The position numbers were made by a program, and so were the translations under genes. The notes under the pieces are model-generated. The model worked only from the letters and a program-made list of their open reading frames with translations. It was not told where the DNA came from and searched no databases. Positions 26,197 to 35,530 of a stretch of DNA of 64,000 nt are shown in pieces (position 1 is the stretch's first letter; the number at the start of each line of letters is the position of its first letter). Origin of the DNA: Elusimicrobiota bacterium (lineage in GTDB: Bacteria > Elusimicrobiota > Elusimicrobia > UBA1565 > UBA9628); assembly GCA_026388095.1 (NCBI GenBank), contig JAPLKL010000006.1, forward strand, positions 1 through 64,000, read 5' to 3'.

Positions 26197-29100
26197 CTAC
26201 TTGACCACGACGATCTTCTGGGTCTTGCTGCCGCCGGGGCCGGACATGTGCACGAGATAGACGCCGCTGGCCACCCGGTTGCCCGCGCCGTTGTTGCCGA
26301 ACCAGTCCACGGAGCCCTTGCCTGCCGGGACGTCCCCGTCGAAGAGCGTGCCCACCAGCGTGCCGTTGAGAGTGTATAGCTTGATGGTCACGCGTCCCGC
26401 GGTCTGGACCTCGTATTTGACAGTGGCCTTCTCCCCCCGAAGCGGGTTGAAGATGTTGTTGTAGGCCGTGAGTTGTGCGCCCCCATCGGACGTCAGATTG
26501 ATGGCGTTCGACAAGCCTAGAGAGACCGTGCTGCCCGTCACATTGTAGCCGAAGACTTCCAGATATATCGTCCCCACGGATGGGAAACGGCACGAGAACG
26601 TCACCGTGGATGAGCACTGCGTGAACGCCTTAGTGGTTTCGGTCGTGAGTTGCACCTGGCCTGTGATCATGCCCAACGCATTGACCATCGAGCCGGGCAC
26701 AACGTTCAAGAAGGTGAAGGTGTTGCTGCTGATCGTATCGGGAATCACATTCCTGGCTTGATCGCGCAGTTGGGCGTAAGCGAAGGAGTAGTCCTGTTTC
26801 TGTGGCCAAGTGGTCACAACAACGGAGAATTTGATGATGTCATGGTCCATCGATGCATTGACCACGCTCCCCTCCAGAGCTCCGGAGCGAGGATAGTCGA
26901 AGGTCAGAGTGTAGGGAAGCAGGGAACTGACGCCGCTCTCGAAGCCGCCGGCCACCTGCAAGAAGAACTGTCCGGCCGACTCGTTCCTGTAGTTCAAGAC
27001 CACGGTCGGCGCCGCCGAAGTGCAGTCACTCTGGTCGCAGAAGGCGAACTCTGAAGGCACCGTGACCACGGGCTTGTGCCGGAGGTCGTAGAGGGTCAGG
27101 CCGTAGCCCATGTAGTAGCCGTCGGAAGGCACGCTATGGACCGGCAGCTTCATGATGATCGAGATCTGTCCTGGCCCGGCCCCAAAGGTGTAGAAGTCCG
27201 TGTGCCCGGGCGGGGAGATCGTGCCGGTCACCACGGTGTAGGTGCTCACGTCCAAGGCGCTCTCGAAGCCCGTATGGAGCTCGTTGACTCCGCCCCCGAG
27301 CAACAGGCCGTGCGCGTTGAAGCGCGGGATGATCGAACTGTTCTGGACCGGACCGCCGCAGGCCGGGACGAGGCCCTGGCTGTCCACCCTCTTCAGGGCA
27401 TCCAGGAATTCTTCGAAGCTCTCCGGGAAGAACTGCAAGGCCTGGAAGACCAGCCCGTCCGCGCAGGCCTGGCCGACCGACGGGTTCAAGCGCGCGATCT
27501 GGTCGGCGCGGATGTCCCAAAGTGCCTGGCTGAAGAAGATGCTGTCCGCATGGATCTCTCCGTTCCAAGCCTGGTCCAAGTAACCGTTGACCGGGAGAGG
27601 ATTGCAGGCGGTGCCCGAACACAACTTCGAGCACTTTCCGTTGGCCCACGATTTTGCCGGGTTGCGGCAGTCCAGTTCGCGCAGGGGCGCCTCGGGATAG
27701 TTGTAGTAGGCGCCAATGGAGGAGTCGTCGAGGGAGGTCGCCGCGAAGTAGTCCGCCAGCCCTTCGGAGATGGCGCCGGCCTGTCCGAAGTTCTGGATCG
27801 ACCAGATTTTCTCCACTACATAGTGGGTGTATTCGTGGCGCGGGACAGTGGCGTCGTCCGTGAGCGAGTCGGACGGAGTCTGGCCCCCGATGGAGGTATC
27901 CCCAAAGTTGAGGTTGTCATAGTCCGGATTGTAGAATGGGTCGCTGACGTTGGGCCCCAGGAGCGCGATGGCGTCGACCGGATGGCTGTTGATGTCAGCG
28001 GCCCCATCCTTGTTCACCGCGTATTGCTGAATGTAGCCGGCGCCGTAGGGGGTCCCCGCCGGGATGCCGGAGTTGAAGAAATCGTGCATCAGGTTGAGGT
28101 GGTAGAACAGGCTGATCTCGCTGCGCATGCCTTCCAAGGCCGTGCCCGTGCTCCATACGAGGTCGCTCACGCCGGAGACGCCCGGGTTGGGCAGGACCAT
28201 GTAGCTGGAAAGGCTCACGTCGTAGCCGTACTGCCCCCCCGGCTGATCGTTCGACTTGAGCCGCAGGTAGTAGGAGTCGCCGGCCACGGCCGCGCCCCTG
28301 AAGGCGCCGCGGTTGCCGAAGAAGGTTCCCACGGGATTGCCGGCGGGGTCCAGCACCGCCAGCTCGTCGTCGTCGATGACCGCGCTCGCCTCGTTGATGG
28401 CCCCGCCCACGGTCCCGACCTCGAATTTGTCGAAGATGGGAAGCACCTTGACCACCTTATGGTTGCTGGGGTGCGTGGGGTCGGAGTCCGTGACGGTGAC
28501 TGTGGATATCAGGGTGACGCTGCCGGGATAGGGGTGCGGCGACGAGACCGGGGTGCTCCCGGTGTACCAGAGGCCACCGCCGTTGTCATAGTGGACGCTG
28601 GGACCCCGGAAATTAGAGACGTTGACGTAGGGCCCCTGCAGCTGGGTGAACATCGCGCCCTGCTTGGTGCTGCAGTAGTGGCCGTCGCCGTAACCGCCGG
28701 TGGCCGGGTCGTCGTAATAGGTCTCGGCCGAGGTGCTGGCGTCGACCACGTAGACGTACTGGTGGCGGAAAGGCCGGACCTGCAGAGCGCCGCGGAGAGG
28801 GTCCACGTCGTAGACCTGGCCGGAGACAGTCCCCGTGCTCAGGCATCCCAGGGTAAAGAAGCGCAGGTCGTTGTAGCGAAAAAGCACCGCGCCGCTATGC
28901 GCGTCGATGTAGTAGCGCCAGAGCGCGGACTTGTCGCGCGCGGTGAACTTCCAGGCCAGACGCGCCTGGCCCGAGTTCTCGTCCGGGAAGACCACCAAAG
29001 CGGCGCGGCTGGAAGGGGCCACCCCCGCGTCCCGGCGCACCGCGGCCGCGGCTTGCGCGGCCGTCAAGGTCGGGACGATGTCCACGGCCAAGTCCGGCTC

Positions 29101-29619
29101 GAAGCGCGAGTGCACGCCGGTCACCGCGCCGCGCGCGTCGAGATGGACCTTGACCCGGGCGAACTCCACGGGCAGGCCCCGATAGGTCTGGCGGTAGAGG
29201 ACATGGTGCTGCCCGCCGCCCGAGACGACCCGCTCCACGGCCAAGGCCGCCGGGTCGACGCCGAGCATCCCGCGCTGTTCCGCCAGGAACGCGGCCGCCG
29301 CCTCTTGAGGCCGTCCCGGATGGGGCCCCGAGGCGCCTTCCACCAGGGCGGAGGGCATGCCGGTGCGTCCGTCGAACCGGATCTTCCAGCGGCCGCCGTG
29401 GGCTTGGTTGAAGGAGTCGAAGGCGCTGCGGGACCGGACGGAAGGGTCCCGCCGCCGGGGCCGGGAGAACTGGTCGAGTCCGAAGCGCTTGGCGTCCGCG
29501 CGGGCGACGGCGGAGCCCCGGACGGCGTAGGCTTGGCGCGGGACCAGGCCGGCCGTCGCCAACAGGGCGGCGCCCGCAAAGGTCCGGATGGCGTGCCTTA
29601 GGTGCTGACCGCGCCGCAT
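26197..29619 (-). CDS. secreted M4/M36-type zinc metalloprotease with FlgD-like C-terminal domain
   Basis: 1140 residues. A signal peptide (AGAALLATAGLVPRQAYA) is followed by an FTP/PepSY-like propeptide (residues about 60-260; HHVLYRQTYRGLPVEFARV) and a catalytic domain with HEYTH at 595-599 and the third zinc ligand E619 in ISEGLADYF. That pattern fits thermolysin/fungalysin proteases. Pre-peptidase-like beta domains follow. The last ~90 residues (NIFNPLRGEKATVKYEV, DWFGNNGAGNRVASGVYLV) form an FlgD-type Ig domain often seen at ends of exported proteins. Likely a secreted protein-degrading enzyme. Its stop lies 3 bases from the ileS stop. Confidence 0.88.
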   Translation of the reverse strand: MRRGQHLRHAIRTFAGAALLATAGLVPRQAYAVRGSAVARADAKRFGLDQFSRPRRRDPSVRSRSAFDSFNQAHGGRWKIRFDGRTGMPSALVEGASGPHPGRPQEAAAAFLAEQRGMLGVDPAALAVERVVSGGGQHHVLYRQTYRGLPVEFARVKVHLDARGAVTGVHSRFEPDLAVDIVPTLTAAQAAAAVRRDAGVAPSSRAALVVFPDENSGQARLAWKFTARDKSALWRYYIDAHSGAVLFRYNDLRFFTLGCLSTGTVSGQVYDVDPLRGALQVRPFRHQYVYVVDASTSAETYYDDPATGGYGDGHYCSTKQGAMFTQLQGPYVNVSNFRGPSVHYDNGGGLWYTGSTPVSSPHPYPGSVTLISTVTVTDSDPTHPSNHKVVKVLPIFDKFEVGTVGGAINEASAVIDDDELAVLDPAGNPVGTFFGNRGAFRGAAVAGDSYYLRLKSNDQPGGQYGYDVSLSSYMVLPNPGVSGVSDLVWSTGTALEGMRSEISLFYHLNLMHDFFNSGIPAGTPYGAGYIQQYAVNKDGAADINSHPVDAIALLGPNVSDPFYNPDYDNLNFGDTSIGGQTPSDSLTDDATVPRHEYTHYVVEKIWSIQNFGQAGAISEGLADYFAATSLDDSSIGAYYNYPEAPLRELDCRNPAKSWANGKCSKLCSGTACNPLPVNGYLDQAWNGEIHADSIFFSQALWDIRADQIARLNPSVGQACADGLVFQALQFFPESFEEFLDALKRVDSQGLVPACGGPVQNSSIIPRFNAHGLLLGGGVNELHTGFESALDVSTYTVVTGTISPPGHTDFYTFGAGPGQISIIMKLPVHSVPSDGYYMGYGLTLYDLRHKPVVTVPSEFAFCDQSDCTSAAPTVVLNYRNESAGQFFLQVAGGFESGVSSLLPYTLTFDYPRSGALEGSVVNASMDHDIIKFSVVVTTWPQKQDYSFAYAQLRDQARNVIPDTISSNTFTFLNVVPGSMVNALGMITGQVQLTTETTKAFTQCSSTVTFSCRFPSVGTIYLEVFGYNVTGSTVSLGLSNAINLTSDGGAQLTAYNNIFNPLRGEKATVKYEVQTAGRVTIKLYTLNGTLVGTLFDGDVPAGKGSVDWFGNNGAGNRVASGVYLVHMSGPGGSKTQKIVVVK

Positions 29620-29678
29620 GACGTCACTAGGTTAGGACAATCCGTTTACAGAAATGTTACGTTCCCGGAAGGAAGACA

Positions 29679-29769
29679 CGGAGAGGGAGGGATTCGAACC
29701 CTCGGTACCAGGATTACCCAGTACAACGGTTTAGCAAACCGTCGGTTTCAGCCGCTCACCCACCTCTCC
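29679..29769 (-). tRNA. tRNA-Ser (anticodon GCT)
   Basis: 91 bases, with the long variable arm of serine tRNAs. Acceptor GGAGAGG/CCTCTCC, anticodon stem ACGGT/ACCGT around TTGCTAA, T-arm GAGGG-TTCGAAT-CCCTC, discriminator G. The 3' CCA is not encoded, unlike the tRNA-Ile at 22925. It lies 17 bases after the phosphatase gene on the same strand. Confidence 0.95.
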
Positions 29770-29786
29770 AAGATCGGGGCGACGCC

Positions 29787-31739
29787 TTATTCTCCTATTT
29801 TTGTCGGCCTTCCGCAACCCGGCCCCAGGTAGCGCAGGGCCAGCAGCGTGATGTCGTCGGCGTGATCGCCCTGGGAGAACCGGTCCACGTCCTTGAGCAG
29901 GCCGAGCACCATGTCCTTGGGCGGGAGCTCACGCGCCTGCTTCAGGTACTCGAGCATCCGCTCTTCGCCGAAGAACGAGCCGTCCGGTGCCATGCCCTCG
30001 GTCACGCCGTCGGTGTAGAGGAACAGGCCGTCGCCCGGCCTCAGAGTCAGCGTCGCCTCCTCGTAAGCCGCCCCGGGGCGGACCCCGACGGCCGTCCCGT
30101 GGCCGCCCTCCAGGAAAGACATCTCCTCGCCTCGGCGCAGGAGCAGAGGGGGGTTGTGCCCGCCGTTGGAGTAGCGCAGCATCCCGGTCTTGATGTCCAG
30201 GACGGCGAAGAAGGTCGTCACGAACATCATCTGATCGTTGCCCTCGCTGAGATTGTCGTTGACCCGGGCCAGGATGGCCGCCGGCGAGAGCGTGGCGCCG
30301 GCCACGCTCTTGAGCAAGGTCTTGGTGATGGCCAGGAACAAGGAGGCAGGCACGCCCTTGCCGGACACGTCGCCGATGGTGAAGCAGAACTGCCCGCCCT
30401 CCATCAAGTAGAAGTCATAGAGGTCGCCGCCGACCTCGCGCGCCGGGTCCAGGACCGCGTGCATCTCGATCTCCGGGAAGTCCGGCAGCGGGGGGAATAT
30501 CTTGGGCAGCGTGCTCATCTGGATGTCGCGGGCGATGGAGAGCTCGCTCTCGATGCGCTGCTTGGCCGCGGTGGTCTCGGTGAGCTTGCGGATGTAGTCC
30601 TTGAGGGAGTCGCGCATCCTGCGGAAGGAGTCCGTCAACTGGCCCACCTCGTCCCGGGATAGCGCCTGGGGCAAGTCCACGTCGAGGTTGCCCCCGGCCA
30701 TGGCCTCAGTGGCCCGCGCCATGGCCGTGAGCGGCTGCGTCACCGAGCGGCACTCCGAGGCCACGAACAGCACGAGGATGAGCAGCGCGCCTGTGCCCAC
30801 CAGGACGGTGATCCAGCTCAGCCGCCGCAGGTCGGAGAGCAACTCCCGGTCAGGGAACACCACCCCCAGCGACCAGCCCGCGATGCCGATGGGCGCGAAG
30901 AACATATGGGCGGGCTCGTCGGTGCCGACGCGCCGGTAGGGCCTGAAGCCCATCTCGCCGCCGATCATCCTCCTGCCGATCTCCCGCAGGACCGGGTCGC
31001 CGCGGCCCTCGGCCAGGCTGAAGATGGTCTCGTTCATGATGAGCTGCTTGCGGTGGTGGGTGACGAAGGTGCCGTTCTGGGATATCAGGAAGGCGTCGCC
31101 CGTCCGGAGCACCTTGATGGAGGAGACCAGCTTCGTCAGCCAGTCCAAGGAGATGTCCACCCCCACGACGCCGACGAAGCGGCGCTCCCCTGCGACCCGG
31201 CGGTAGAAGGGCACGGAGTAGCTCGTCATCAGGATGTCGCCGCCGCCCACGTCGAAATAGGGCTCGCTCCAGGCCGGGCGCCCCAGCTCCTTGGGGATCT
31301 GGAAGAAGTCCTCGTAGAAGTATTGGTAGGTGGGGCTGCCCAGCACCGCGTACCTGAGCTTCCCGTTCATCCGGTGGTAGGCGGGGCAAAAGTAGAGGTG
31401 CTTTTGGTCGAAGGCATGCGGCGCGAAGGCGATCCAGAACCCATAGATGTCGGGGTTGGTCTGGGCCGCCTGCTTGAGCAGGCGCTGCATCGTCTCCTGA
31501 CCGACAGGGGCGTCGTCCAGATAATCGGCCAGGCCCTCCGGGACCTTCTGGATCGGCCCCAGGATGGAGCGCACCTGATGGACCGTGCTCATGGTCAGCT
31601 GCCGGGCGTATCGCTCCGTGTCCTGCAGCATCAGCCGGCTCGTGAACCGGTAGAAGAAGCCGAAGACCACCGCAAAGACGACGGTGCTCGTGGCGCAGAC
31701 GAGCACGATGAGCTTAAAGGCGATCGACTTATCGCGCAT
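29787..31739 (-). CDS. RsbU/SpoIIE-type PP2C phosphatase with dCache sensor and HAMP
   Basis: 650 residues. Membrane helix about 8-30, periplasmic double-Cache-like sensor about 35-285 (PDIYGFWIAFAPH, SYSVPFYRR, VVGVDISLDWL), second helix about 292-312, HAMP region and coiled coil to about 400, then a PP2C phosphatase (DPAREVGGDLYDFYL, FTIGDVSGKGVPASLFLA, DGLFLYTDGVTEGM, DHADDITLLALRY) with the metal-binding aspartates in place. Such enzymes dephosphorylate a STAS anti-anti-sigma protein. The matching STAS and kinase genes are at the head of this operon. The start overlaps the binding-protein gene by 11 bases. Confidence 0.92.
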   Translation of the reverse strand: MRDKSIAFKLIVLVCATSTVVFAVVFGFFYRFTSRLMLQDTERYARQLTMSTVHQVRSILGPIQKVPEGLADYLDDAPVGQETMQRLLKQAAQTNPDIYGFWIAFAPHAFDQKHLYFCPAYHRMNGKLRYAVLGSPTYQYFYEDFFQIPKELGRPAWSEPYFDVGGGDILMTSYSVPFYRRVAGERRFVGVVGVDISLDWLTKLVSSIKVLRTGDAFLISQNGTFVTHHRKQLIMNETIFSLAEGRGDPVLREIGRRMIGGEMGFRPYRRVGTDEPAHMFFAPIGIAGWSLGVVFPDRELLSDLRRLSWITVLVGTGALLILVLFVASECRSVTQPLTAMARATEAMAGGNLDVDLPQALSRDEVGQLTDSFRRMRDSLKDYIRKLTETTAAKQRIESELSIARDIQMSTLPKIFPPLPDFPEIEMHAVLDPAREVGGDLYDFYLMEGGQFCFTIGDVSGKGVPASLFLAITKTLLKSVAGATLSPAAILARVNDNLSEGNDQMMFVTTFFAVLDIKTGMLRYSNGGHNPPLLLRRGEEMSFLEGGHGTAVGVRPGAAYEEATLTLRPGDGLFLYTDGVTEGMAPDGSFFGEERMLEYLKQARELPPKDMVLGLLKDVDRFSQGDHADDITLLALRYLGPGCGRPTKIGE

Positions 31740-32697
31740 CGCGCTCCGCGCAGGGCGCTAAGAAGGAATCGAATGCGGGCGCCGCCTGGATCAGGCCTCC
31801 GTCCACGAGCACCTGGGCGGTCCGGGCGTAGTCCTCCGGCTTGAGCCGGCCGGTCAGGACGCGGCTGCTGCGGTCCTGGAAGAGTTCGCGCATCTGATCG
31901 AGCATCCAGCGCTGGTGGATCAGGTCGGCCGGGATGTGCGCCGCGCGCATGCGCTGCAGGACGACCTCCAAGGCCTCATCCTGATGGGAGAAGGCGTAGT
32001 CCCAGCCTTCCAGGCTGGCCATGGCGAAGGCGCAGGCGCGCGCCGGGTCCTTGCGGTAGGTCGCCTCCAGGGCGTAGATTCCGTCCTCGGGGGAATTCAG
32101 GCCGTACTCGTCGAACCGGAAGACGCTCAGCTCCCGGGGCTCGAGGCCGGAATTGAGCATGGTGTGGTACTCATTGTAGATCATGGCCGAAGCCAGGTCC
32201 ACGCCTCCACGCAGGAACAGGTTCACGGAATGGGACTGCCGGACCTCCCGCACGCTGACCCCGTACTTCTTGAAGAAAGCCCGGGGCAGAATCTGGAAGC
32301 TCTCCCAGAGGCCGACCTTCTTGCCCTTCATGTCCGCCGGCTTGCCGATGCCCGAGGACTTCATGGCGACCAGGACCAGCGCGGAGTATTGGCTGGTCTG
32401 CGCCAGATTGACCAGCCGCACCCCGTGCGCCCGCAGGCGGATGGCCTCCGAAAGCCAGAGCGTGCCGAAATCCGCCTTCCTCTCGCGCAGCAGTGCGTCG
32501 GCGGGCATGTCCGGGCCCCCTTGGAGGATGGTCACGTCCAATCCGCGCTTCCGGTAGAAGCCCTTGGCCTCGGCCATGTAGTAGCCCGCGAACTGAGCCT
32601 GCGGGCTCCACAAGGGCGCATAGACCATCGGGCGCGGCGTTGGCGCGGCGCTAGCGCAGCCGGACCACAGCGCCAGCGCCAGGCCGATGGTCGTCAT
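31729..32697 (-). CDS. NMT1/SsuA-type periplasmic solute-binding protein
   Basis: 322 residues. The signal peptide ends near SGCASA, and a lipoprotein cleavage before Cys14 is possible though the -3 residue is Trp. The mature part follows the NMT1/THI5-like plan (WSPQAQFAGYYMAEAKGFYRK near its start, GGPDMPADALL, ADMKGKKVGLWE). Relatives bind thiamine precursors, taurine or other small organics for ABC importers, but no permease or ATPase is present here. It sits between a HATPase gene and the Cache-domain phosphatase with overlapping ends, so it may present ligand to that sensor. The link is inferred from gene order. Confidence 0.85.
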   Translation of the reverse strand: MTTIGLALALWSGCASAAPTPRPMVYAPLWSPQAQFAGYYMAEAKGFYRKRGLDVTILQGGPDMPADALLRERKADFGTLWLSEAIRLRAHGVRLVNLAQTSQYSALVLVAMKSSGIGKPADMKGKKVGLWESFQILPRAFFKKYGVSVREVRQSHSVNLFLRGGVDLASAMIYNEYHTMLNSGLEPRELSVFRFDEYGLNSPEDGIYALEATYRKDPARACAFAMASLEGWDYAFSHQDEALEVVLQRMRAAHIPADLIHQRWMLDQMRELFQDRSSRVLTGRLKPEDYARTAQVLVDGGLIQAAPAFDSFLAPCAERDAR

Positions 32698-33116
32698 GCC
32701 CCGGGAGTGCGCCGGAATTCGAGCCGCAGGACGTTGCGGCCGGGCCGGCGTTCGTAGCTGACGCGATCCGTGACCTTCTTTATCAGGAAGACGCCGAGAC
32801 CGCCGATGGGACGATCCTCGAGGGGGACCGTAAGATCGGGATCGGCCCGGGCGGTCATGTCGAAAGGCCTGCCGTCGTCCGCGATCTCCACGGCGAGGAT
32901 GCCGTCGTCCGCGAGACAGGAGAGTCCGATGGCGGCCGGCCCCTCTGGTCCGGCGTATTTGCAGATATTGGTGACCGCCTCCTCCACGGCCAGCTCGACG
33001 CAGCCGATCTTCTGGGGATCCAGGCCCTCGGCGCGCGCGGCGCCGGACACCACGGCGATGAATTTCGGGAGGTTTTCGAGGAGGGCCGGCGACTCAAGCC
33101 GCGCGATGCTGCGCAT
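32694..33116 (-). CDS. RsbW-like anti-sigma kinase (HATPase_c)
   Basis: 140 residues from ATG 33116 (MRSIARLES); the longer open frame upstream overlaps the STAS gene. It contains the GHKL ATP site: N-box EEAVTNICKYA, G1-like DDGRPFD, and GGLGVFLIKKVTD. This is the compact form used as serine kinase of STAS proteins and binder of sigma factors. Its likely substrates are the STAS protein 13 bases upstream and a sigma factor encoded elsewhere. Its stop overlaps the ATG of the binding-protein gene. Confidence 0.88.
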   Translation of the reverse strand: MRSIARLESPALLENLPKFIAVVSGAARAEGLDPQKIGCVELAVEEAVTNICKYAGPEGPAAIGLSCLADDGILAVEIADDGRPFDMTARADPDLTVPLEDRPIGGLGVFLIKKVTDRVSYERRPGRNVLRLEFRRTPGA

Positions 33117-33129
33117 TGGGATGGCCAGC

Positions 33130-33423
33130 CTATTGGATCGTGAGACAGACCTCCAGCCCCGCGATCTTGAAGACCTTCTTGACCTCCGGAGCCACATTGG
33201 CCATGATGAAGCGCTCCTGGCCGACCGTCTGGGCCGCGCGCAGGCAGATGCGCAAGAACGACGAGGAAACGTAGCCCACCCCGGACAGGTCGAAGGTCAC
33301 CGGAGTTTTCGCCTGGGAGACCTCCTCGTCAATCCGGGTGGCGTGCTGCTCGCAGGCCAGAGTATCCATCCGTTCGGGGAAAGTACAGACCAGACGGCCG
33401 TCGACCGTGGCGATGTTGAACAT
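33130..33423 (-). CDS. STAS-domain anti-sigma factor antagonist
   Basis: 97 residues from ATG 33423, chosen because GGAGG stands in good position before it. The fold reads FNIATVDGRLVCTFPERMD, then the conserved loop DLSGVGYVSSSFLRICL holding the serine normally phosphorylated by RsbW-type kinases. It is the first gene of the four-gene partner-switching operon and should be the phosphatase substrate. Confidence 0.9.
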   Translation of the reverse strand: MFNIATVDGRLVCTFPERMDTLACEQHATRIDEEVSQAKTPVTFDLSGVGYVSSSFLRICLRAAQTVGQERFIMANVAPEVKKVFKIAGLEVCLTIQ

Positions 33424-33493: not shown

Positions 33494-35530
33494 TCAACGG
33501 CGGCGCTTGGCGCCTTTCCTCGCGGGCCTGGACCCGGCGAAGAAGATCGAGAGCTCCTCCAGACTGGCCAGACGCCGGCAAGGAGGCAGGGCCTCCAGGA
33601 AGGTCTCTCCGTAGCGCTTGTGCAGGATGCGCGAATCCAGGATGACCACCGCGCCGCGGTCGCAGCCGCTGCGGATCAAGCGGCCGAATCCCTGGCGCAG
33701 CTTCATGACCGCGCGGGGGAGGCTCCAGCACTCGAAATAGGAGCGGCCGAAGGACTCGTGCCAGCGCCTGCGCGCCTCTTCCAAGGGCGAGGCGAAATTG
33801 GGGAAAGGGAGCTTGGCCAGGATCACGCAGGAGAGGGCCGCTCCGGGGACGTCCACGCCCTGCCAGAAGGTGTCCACTCCCAGCAGCACGGCGTCGCCGG
33901 CTGAGATGAAGTCGTTCAAGAGCGCCTCGTTGCCGGAGACGCCCTGGACCCACAAGGGCCGGCCCTTGATCCGGCCTTTCATGAGACCATGGACCCGGCG
34001 CAGCATCTTCCAACTCGAGAACAGGATGAAGACCCCTCCGGGGATGCTGGGGATGATATCGCGGCAGCGCCGCGCCACCGCCGCCGCGTAGGCCGTCTCG
34101 TCGGACGGGTCGGGGCCGTCATCGAGTATGAGCAGAGCAGCCTGGCTGCGGAAATCGAAAGGGGAATCCAGCGCCAGTTCCCGCGCGCCCGCCATGCCGA
34201 CCTGCGCCTTGAACTCTCCCAAGCCCCGGCCCCAGGAGAGCGTGGCGGAAGTCATCACCACCGGGACTGCCGGCCCCAGGAGCTTATCGGAGAGCGGCTG
34301 CGACACGTCGAGCGGCACGGCGCGGAGTTCGAAGCCGAAGCGGCGGGGGGCGCGGCCGGTCTGCGGCCGGTCCGGCTGGCCCAAGGGGAACCACTCCACC
34401 CAGCGCGCGGTGTCGAGCGATCCGACCCCGAGAAGCTCGCGGAGGTCCTGGCGCAAGGCCGCCGCCCGGGCCTGCAGGGCATGGGCCTCGGACTCGTCTT
34501 CAGGGTCCGGGCATCTCCGCCGGACCTCGGCCAGACCTCGTTCCAGGCCGGCCAAAGAGGGGGGCTCAGATGCCTCTTCCGAGGAGCCCTCCAGCAGCCT
34601 GCCCCCGGGCTCCGCTACGCGTTCCGAGAAGCCGTGCCGGAAGGCGACCGCCCTGAGGAACTGCGGCCCCTCCTCGGCGCAGAGCCCGGCGCAGCGCAGC
34701 GCCTCGGCCCAGGACCCGTCGGCATCTCCGCCTTGGGCCGCGCTGCGGCCGGCCAAGGCCGCAGTCTCCTCGGCCAGGCGCAGGAAGCGGCCCGGGGTCA
34801 CGGCCGTGCCGAAATGACCGGCCGCGACATCCGCGAGGGTGTGCGCTTCGTCCACGACCAGGGCATCGCTCGGGGGCAGCCGTGCGGCCGAAAGCAGCAA
34901 GGAGTGGTTGATGACCAGGACCTGCGCCTTCTCGGCGCGCTCCCGGTCGCAGCGGTAGAGGCAACGGCCGCATTGTGCGGGGCGCCTGCGGCCCTGCCCC
35001 AGGCAAAGCTCCGGATCCCGGCAGATCCGGCGCCAGAGACCCTCCGGCACGAGGTTGGGCAGGCGCGTGCGCTGGCCCGTCTCCGCCGTCCTGGCCCAGG
35101 CGGACAGCTCCTGCAGAACGATTGCCGTGGAGTCCGAGAAGGATTCGGGGGACTGGACCAGCCTTTCGAGCCGGCGCACGCAGAGATAGTTGTCGGCGCC
35201 CATGAGCATGGCGTAGCTCAGGCGATGGCCCAGGCGCCTGAGGACGCGCGCGACGGTGGGCAGTTCGCGCGATAGGACCTGCTCCTGCAGCGCGCGCGTG
35301 TGAGTCGAGACCTGGAGGCGCCTGCCCCCGGACATCGCCCACAGGGCTCCGGGAAGCAGGTAGGCCAGGGACTTGCCCACGCCCGTGCCCGCCTCGACTA
35401 CGAGACCGCCGCCCCGCTCGAGAGTCTCCAGGACCGCCGCGGCCATGCGGGCCTGCTGCGGCCGGAACTCATAATCAGGATCTTCCATGGCCAGAGGTCC
35501 TTCCGGCGAGAAGAGTTCCGCGGTAGTCAT
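33494..35530 (-). CDS. dinG: DinG/XPD-family ATP-dependent helicase
   Basis: 678 residues. Walker A is EAGTGVGKS (46-54), the Walker B box is VVDEAH, and the motif VI region is QGFGRLIRSG. Cysteines C117, C176, C187, C190 and C194 lie where XPD/DinG enzymes hold a 4Fe-4S cluster, and C170 is an extra one. DinG-type helicases unwind R-loops and damaged DNA structures 5' to 3'. No exonuclease domain is fused. The gene is alone on this strand between the STAS promoter and a membrane protein. An earlier in-frame start was not seen. Confidence 0.9.
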   Translation of the reverse strand: MTTAELFSPEGPLAMEDPDYEFRPQQARMAAAVLETLERGGGLVVEAGTGVGKSLAYLLPGALWAMSGGRRLQVSTHTRALQEQVLSRELPTVARVLRRLGHRLSYAMLMGADNYLCVRRLERLVQSPESFSDSTAIVLQELSAWARTAETGQRTRLPNLVPEGLWRRICRDPELCLGQGRRRPAQCGRCLYRCDRERAEKAQVLVINHSLLLSAARLPPSDALVVDEAHTLADVAAGHFGTAVTPGRFLRLAEETAALAGRSAAQGGDADGSWAEALRCAGLCAEEGPQFLRAVAFRHGFSERVAEPGGRLLEGSSEEASEPPSLAGLERGLAEVRRRCPDPEDESEAHALQARAAALRQDLRELLGVGSLDTARWVEWFPLGQPDRPQTGRAPRRFGFELRAVPLDVSQPLSDKLLGPAVPVVMTSATLSWGRGLGEFKAQVGMAGARELALDSPFDFRSQAALLILDDGPDPSDETAYAAAVARRCRDIIPSIPGGVFILFSSWKMLRRVHGLMKGRIKGRPLWVQGVSGNEALLNDFISAGDAVLLGVDTFWQGVDVPGAALSCVILAKLPFPNFASPLEEARRRWHESFGRSYFECWSLPRAVMKLRQGFGRLIRSGCDRGAVVILDSRILHKRYGETFLEALPPCRRLASLEELSIFFAGSRPARKGAKRRR

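Follow-up and report, generated by a model that had tools for sequence, protein, structure and literature searches.

The window analyzed here is a stretch of 64,000 nucleotides from an Elusimicrobiota bacterium (contig JAPLKL010000006.1, 139,444 bases, in a source genome of 4.6 Mb), and its minus strand carries a four-gene operon that runs from a STAS protein through a HATPase kinase and an NMT1-type solute-binding protein to a dCache-HAMP-PP2C phosphatase (Table 1). The reading that best accounts for this operon, and one we consider probable, is that the binding protein and the dCache domain form a two-protein receptor feeding a partner switch. Coordinates and Pfam matches confirm the four minus-strand genes and the 4- and 11-base overlaps given in a preliminary description of the window. 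Both overlaps flank NMT1: the HATPase and NMT1 genes share the 4 bases ATGA (32694–32697), and the NMT1 and PP2C genes share 11 (31729–31739). The STAS and HATPase genes are separated by a 13-base gap, without overlap, when the latter starts at the ATG at 33116; the start of the longest frame, at 33197, would overlap STAS, and the 33116 start is preferred because the resulting length is typical of the family.

Table 1. Features of the operon and its boundaries, in window positions.
Feature	Coordinates	Strand	Evidence and remarks
STAS-domain anti-anti-sigma protein (RsbV/SpoIIAA-like), 97 aa	33130–33423	−	Pfam STAS 2.4e-7, STAS_2 1.2e-7; ATG with AGG-type ribosome site
HATPase_c_2 serine kinase (RsbW/SpoIIAB-like), 140 aa	32694–33116	−	Pfam 2.1e-27
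NMT1/THI5-like periplasmic solute-binding protein, 322 aa	31729–32697	−	Pfam NMT1 7.7e-36, domain 31972–32598
Transmembrane-dCache-transmembrane-HAMP-PP2C membrane sensor phosphatase (RsbU-like), 650 aa	29787–31739	−	Pfam SpoIIE 4.4e-53, MCP-like_PDC_1 4e-24, dCache_1, HAMP
Periplasmic dCache domain of the phosphatase	30858–31613	−	dCache_1, residues 43–294; AlphaFold2 pLDDT 92.9
PP2C/SpoIIE catalytic domain	29829–30398	−	PF07228, 6.5e-54
tRNA-Ser(GCT), directly downstream; boundary, outside the module	29678–29770	−	ARAGORN
DinG-like helicase, upstream of the operon	33494–35530		

As read from the sequence, the phosphatase has intact catalytic motifs (GGDLYDF, IGDVSGKG, YTDGVTE, and DDITLL) with the metal-binding aspartates kept, the kinase retains EEAVTNICKYA and GGLGVFLIKK, and the STAS protein offers a candidate phosphoserine at the expected loop (YVSSSFLRI). 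The best PDB matches of the kinase are RsbW (6m36, 3e-5) and SpoIIAB (1tid). Judged by these domains and motifs, which comprise the expected phosphatase, kinase, and STAS protein, the operon is a partner-switching module of the RsbU/RsbV/RsbW type. No sigma factor gene lies in or next to the operon, and a search aimed at the rest of the genome was not made; family precedent is the one argument for sigma-factor control, and the switch may have a different kind of target.

The NMT1 protein covers positions 2–216 of the 216 of PF09084, and its AlphaFold2 (AF2) model (predicted local distance difference test, pLDDT, 94.6) is closest among solved folds to ThiY (3ix1; template modeling score 0.75) and to the thiamin-bound 4nmy, the match to ThiY giving it the two-lobed fold of a binding protein. 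Its N-terminus is short, uncharged, and hydrophobic (MTTIGLALALWSGCASAA), and a hydrophobic N-terminal stretch is present in all 63 NMT1 copies checked, the window's included; we infer a signal peptide and export, mainly from the relatives. Fourteen residues (W30, Q33, Q35, F36, A37, G38, Y39, Y40, Q100, W131, N175, E176, E204, and D205) are invariant in 57 NMT1 sequences from many phyla, and this invariance therefore suggests one ligand class across the clade. The resemblance to ThiY and the thiamin binder suggests an N-heterocyclic ligand; thiamin or hydroxymethylpyrimidine is a mere lead, however, because ThiY and 4nmy lack the QxQFAGYY block and have other residues aligned at Q33 and Q35. 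An Rfam scan of nine linked loci recovered no riboswitch that would name the ligand. Genes for molybdoenzymes of the xanthine dehydrogenase family occur within a few kb of the module in seven loci (L018, L024, L026, L027, L029, L045, and L059), a hint at a purine-like ligand from too few loci to argue from.

The AF2 model of the sensor domain (pLDDT 92.9) finds its closest solved fold in 3lib, an amine-binding dCache domain. Positions of the amine motif, mapped by alignment to 3lib and PacA rather than by structure, are largely kept among 57 sequences: an aromatic residue at 105 (F or Y) in 49, W145 in 55, M171 in 55, T or S at 173 in all 57, and D195 in all 57. The window's own domain has F instead of W at 145.

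The preliminary description had set the co-occurrence of NMT1 with Cache-PP2C phosphatases across genomes as a test beforehand, and the linkage is kept in at least 12 phyla. A query with NMT1 only, blind to neighboring genes, recovered 80 loci from the genomes of 84,980 species; 65 of these (L016–L079 and L090) constitute the close family, and 64 are testable, the NMT1 gene of L070 running off its contig. The next gene on the same strand encodes a dCache protein in 63 of the 64. Of these dCache genes, 56 carry a PP2C domain, 3 are chemoreceptors (L060 and L075 by Pfam, L040 by reading only), and 4 are cut or interrupted (L044, L056, L057, and L066). Together with the window and L007 there are 65 linked loci, and in 53 of them the NMT1 and dCache genes overlap when the first start codon is used. 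Carriers belong to the Elusimicrobia, Desulfobacterota, Nitrospirota, Coprothermobacterota, Bacteroidota, Ignavibacteriota, Lentisphaerota, Verrucomicrobia, Wallbacteria, Hydrogenedentes, Pseudomonadota (Azonexus, Rhodocyclus), and a Thermoleophilia bin, and cultured organisms are among them: Azonexus hydrophilus, Rhodocyclus purpureus DSM 168, Desulfobulbus elongatus DSM 2908, and Desulfatibacillum alkenivorans DSM 16219. Nine of 295 Elusimicrobiota genomes carry this NMT1. Among the Desulfobacterota it is found in 66 of 395 genomes, one copy each; one copy ends its contig, and 63 of the 65 testable copies adjoin a Cache-family match, mostly with fewer than 40 bases between the two profile matches. 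Random gene order would give about 0.0006 such adjacencies per copy, and the adjacency is far beyond chance. No fusion of the pair was seen: the open frames of NMT1 matches do not continue into a Cache domain, and NMT1 is the sole Pfam domain even in the 938-aa frame of L034.

The partner-switch core travels with the NMT1-Cache pair in several arrangements. Both STAS and HATPase genes lie within 3.5 kb at 32 linked loci, HATPase alone at 8, and STAS alone at 4, counts that come from contigs of which many are short, and in eight loci the phosphatase itself ends in a fused C-terminal HATPase (with Pfam confirmation for L035). The converse search returned 21 Desulfobacterota Cache-family matches that do not adjoin NMT1. 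These include STAS/HATPase/dCache-PP2C operons without a binding protein (L172, L173, and L175–L177), an NMT1 gene with an internal deletion beside a Cache-family match (L174), dCache-guanylate cyclases, and an HD protein, and matches without NMT1 are scattered in the Cache tree. Because some Cache relatives have no adjoining NMT1, the domain can have other inputs. Of the two, the binding protein is the more dependent on its partner, as would be expected of an input.

Pairwise distances across 51 loci correlate more closely between NMT1 and Cache (r 0.75) than between NMT1 and the PP2C domain (0.56); the partial correlations are 0.64 for NMT1 and Cache given PP2C and 0.28 for NMT1 and PP2C given Cache. 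At the 35 loci with all four parts, NMT1 correlates at 0.79 with Cache, 0.52 with PP2C, and 0.40 with the kinase; when loci are bootstrapped, the differences exclude zero. Because the genes are neighbors in most loci, common inheritance by itself would be expected to produce values close to one another; the co-divergence indicates Cache as the partner of NMT1. In the NMT1 tree the Cache-linked clade stands apart, with starred support, from ABC-linked, fused, and other clades (ABC, ATP-binding cassette); it also contains three divergent ABC-type rows, which sit on a long branch and are probably misplaced. In one separate lineage the NMT1 gene overlaps that of a dCache-histidine kinase (L166), and in another NMT1 occurs in fusions with PAS-histidine kinase, PAS-GGDEF, and GGDEF-EAL proteins, so the broad NMT1 family appears to have entered signaling more than once.

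No cognate importer was found for the binding protein. The claim that no ABC permease accompanies it in the window extends to the whole 139-kb contig, which has no BPD_transp_1 match, and the permease and ATPase pair elsewhere that was to count against a signaling role has not emerged. Six ABC importers were detected in the window genome from BPD-type permease matches. As read, every one of the six operons includes a binding protein (two of the NMT1 type, the others tungstate-, sugar-, polyamine-, and anion-like), and no importer without one was found among them. A permease of the SsuC/ThiX type lies within 4 kb at none of the 65 linked loci and at 11 of 11 ABC-clade NMT1 loci, in a test that used three verified SsuC/ThiX-type permeases and is blind to TrpX-type and amino-acid-type permeases. 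Neither search gave the protein the cognate permease and ATPase expected of a ThiXYZ-type importer component.

The pairing with the sensor is kept with such fidelity that a role of the binding protein as the sensor's input is very probable. A plausible sequence of events would begin with export of the NMT1 protein and its capture of a small ligand, probably N-heterocyclic or amine-type. The protein would then dock on the periplasmic dCache domain of the phosphatase, and a conformational change passing through HAMP would set PP2C activity. The phosphatase would dephosphorylate the STAS protein, which the kinase would rephosphorylate; unphosphorylated STAS protein would capture the kinase and free the kinase's other partner. 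Export, docking, the direction of control, control of PP2C, and phospho-transfer are all putative. The suggestion that a small-molecule binder serves as signal input to sigma-factor control divides in two: the input half gains support from the linkage, the lack of an orphan importer among those detected, the co-divergence with Cache, and the occurrence of the NMT1 clade beside dCache chemoreceptors as well, with presentation of ligand to the Cache domain as a hypothetical step, and the sigma-factor half finds no sigma gene in the operon to act on.

Several observations weigh against a two-protein receptor. The Cache pocket retains amine-sensor residues and could bind a ligand directly, and it is possible that NMT1 and Cache both bind ligand. 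NMT1 occurs as an orphan without a Cache partner at L069 and, in the Desulfobacterota, at L170 and L171, and about a dozen dCache-PP2C and dCache-cyclase relatives stand without an NMT1 gene beside them; the sensor may therefore work alone. Common selection on exported domains is another possible source of co-divergence. Finally, an ABC_sub_bind/BPD_transp_2 (TrpX-type) system lies near about nine linked loci, and an SBP_bac_3/BPD_transp_1 amino-acid-type system near about six; where read, these nearby systems include binding proteins of their own.

The first of these observations leads to an alternative that we consider unlikely, though less so than the others: the Cache domain would bind its own ligand, an amine as in dCache_1AM sensors, and NMT1 would do no more than scavenge or buffer ligand in the periplasm, raising its local concentration without any specific contact. 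The resemblance to 3lib, the conserved mapped positions, and the Cache relatives without NMT1 are in keeping with this, as is a report on Chlamydia RsbU, in which the phosphatase is said to sense a metabolite itself (PMC11619594). A mere scavenger, however, would not have to co-diverge more with Cache than with other parts of the operon, or to keep its place beside it in 63 of 65 copies, and the mapping of the amine motif rests on alignment rather than structure.

Two further roles can be imagined for the NMT1-like protein, both of them improbable. It could be an enzyme that makes or alters the molecule sensed by Cache, in the manner of the hydrolase RsbQ with RsbP; fungal THI5 and DszB share the fold, the nearest solved structures by sequence and by fold include THI5, the invariant polar set Q33, Q35, Q100, N175, E176, E204, and D205 marks the family, and RsbQ-PAS pairs likewise place one pair on several outputs (PMC3183031). 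We give this little credence: the closest folds, ThiY and 4nmy, are plain binding proteins, and relatives across the wider family are ordinary binding proteins with linked ABC importers. Slighter still is the chance that NMT1 works for an importer whose genes lie elsewhere and owes its place in the operon to co-regulation alone. Other ABC systems do occur near some linked loci, but the six detected importers of the window genome are each self-supplied, and the linked clade is both separate from ABC-linked NMT1 and devoid of a matching permease nearby.

The surroundings of the module contain further genes with domains of the same families. Amino-acid-type ABC ATPases with a C-terminal RsbW-like HATPase_c_2 domain occur at L016:2283-3581, L017:5912-7027, L039:5426-6517, L041:12801-13892, L077:9673-10764, L216:7051-8139, and L217:4937-6583. 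The organisms with such a gene close to the module belong to Elusimicrobiota, Rhodocyclales, and Hydrogenedentes, and SBP_bac_3 and BPD_transp_1 genes adjoin it where checked. A profile search of Elusimicrobiota genomes gave a strong match in 4 of the 9 NMT1-PP2C genomes versus 0 of 286 others (Fisher 4e-7); the window genome has no such protein. We can offer, as a speculation that is doubtful as it stands, a broader proposal: NMT1-dCache would be a portable receptor, spread over at least 12 phyla with PP2C and chemotaxis outputs, and in some lineages the switch would act on the amino-acid ABC importer with the RsbW-like C-terminus, not on a sigma factor. If so, a binding protein would control transport through a phosphatase.

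Proteins of 430–530 aa with an N-terminal HATPase_c_2-like domain and an unrecognized C-terminal part also recur near the module (L029:10789-12372, L037:11229-12743, L045:4434-5750, L048:417-1703, and L059:11817-13124), and at L079:5545-7848, upstream of the module, STAS is fused to an acetyl-CoA-synthetase-like AMP-binding enzyme. The TrpX-type loci near the PP2C gene are L046, L057, L063, L064, L067, L072, L073, L076, and L078, with up to three tandem ABC_sub_bind domains per protein. Elsewhere in the window genome, on contig C36, an NMT1 domain and, after it, a sulfatase domain share one open frame (L002:1-2421). Just past the tRNA-Ser of the window, at 26197–29619, lies the gene for a 1140-aa secreted protease-like protein (FTP, PepSY, FlgD-Ig).

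Neither an NMT1-dCache-PP2C operon nor a binding protein as input to a phosphatase of this class was found described in the open-access literature. Receptors known to respond to binding proteins include chemoreceptors, sensor kinases, cyclic di-GMP enzymes, and Ser/Thr kinases, and phosphatases are absent from the 2022 survey of these systems (PMC9602780). If the proposed receptor is real, a PP2C gated by a binding protein would be an additional receptor class in partner switching, a form of regulation for which few input signals are known, and the ligand could be sought with a small, soluble protein instead of a sensor embedded in the membrane.

Among characterized systems, the closest in sequence and fold to the NMT1 protein are the pyrimidine importer component ThiY of ThiXYZ and the thiamin-binding protein 4nmy; these serve ABC importers, whereas the present clade has no matching permease nearby. 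The sensor resembles the dCache_1AM amine sensors in its closest fold and in motif positions that, as mapped by alignment, are largely kept, and the available part of the work on that domain, which places it in Ser/Thr phosphatases too, describes no binding-protein partner, unlike the present system (PMC10104139). The Rsb switch of Chlamydia similarly combines a periplasmic sensor on a PP2C with an RsbW-like kinase and an RsbV-like STAS protein, but its RsbU is reported to sense metabolites itself, and no binding-protein gene is described with it in the portion of that report available (PMC11619594). In LuxP-LuxQ, TorT-TorS, and XylFII-LytS, for which solved complexes exist, a periplasmic binding protein is likewise the input to a membrane receptor (PMC6321045), and the tandem-PAS fold of LuxQ is remotely like dCache (PMC5658362). 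NMT1-dCache shows the conserved adjacency of such coupled receptors (63 of 64 and 63 of 65). The outputs of those three systems are histidine kinases, not PP2C phosphatases, and their binding proteins belong to other families. Nearest in logic is RsbQ-RsbP of Bacillus subtilis, an adjacent pair in which a separate protein feeds the sensor of a PP2C in a partner switch, and which, like NMT1-dCache, is re-used on several output domains (PMC3183031). The families differ: RsbQ is an alpha/beta hydrolase acting on a PAS sensor, while here a binding protein with a hydrophobic N-terminal segment is paired with a periplasmic dCache domain. By analogy, then, the present system would join the binding-protein–receptor idea of LuxP-LuxQ with the idea embodied in RsbQ-RsbP.

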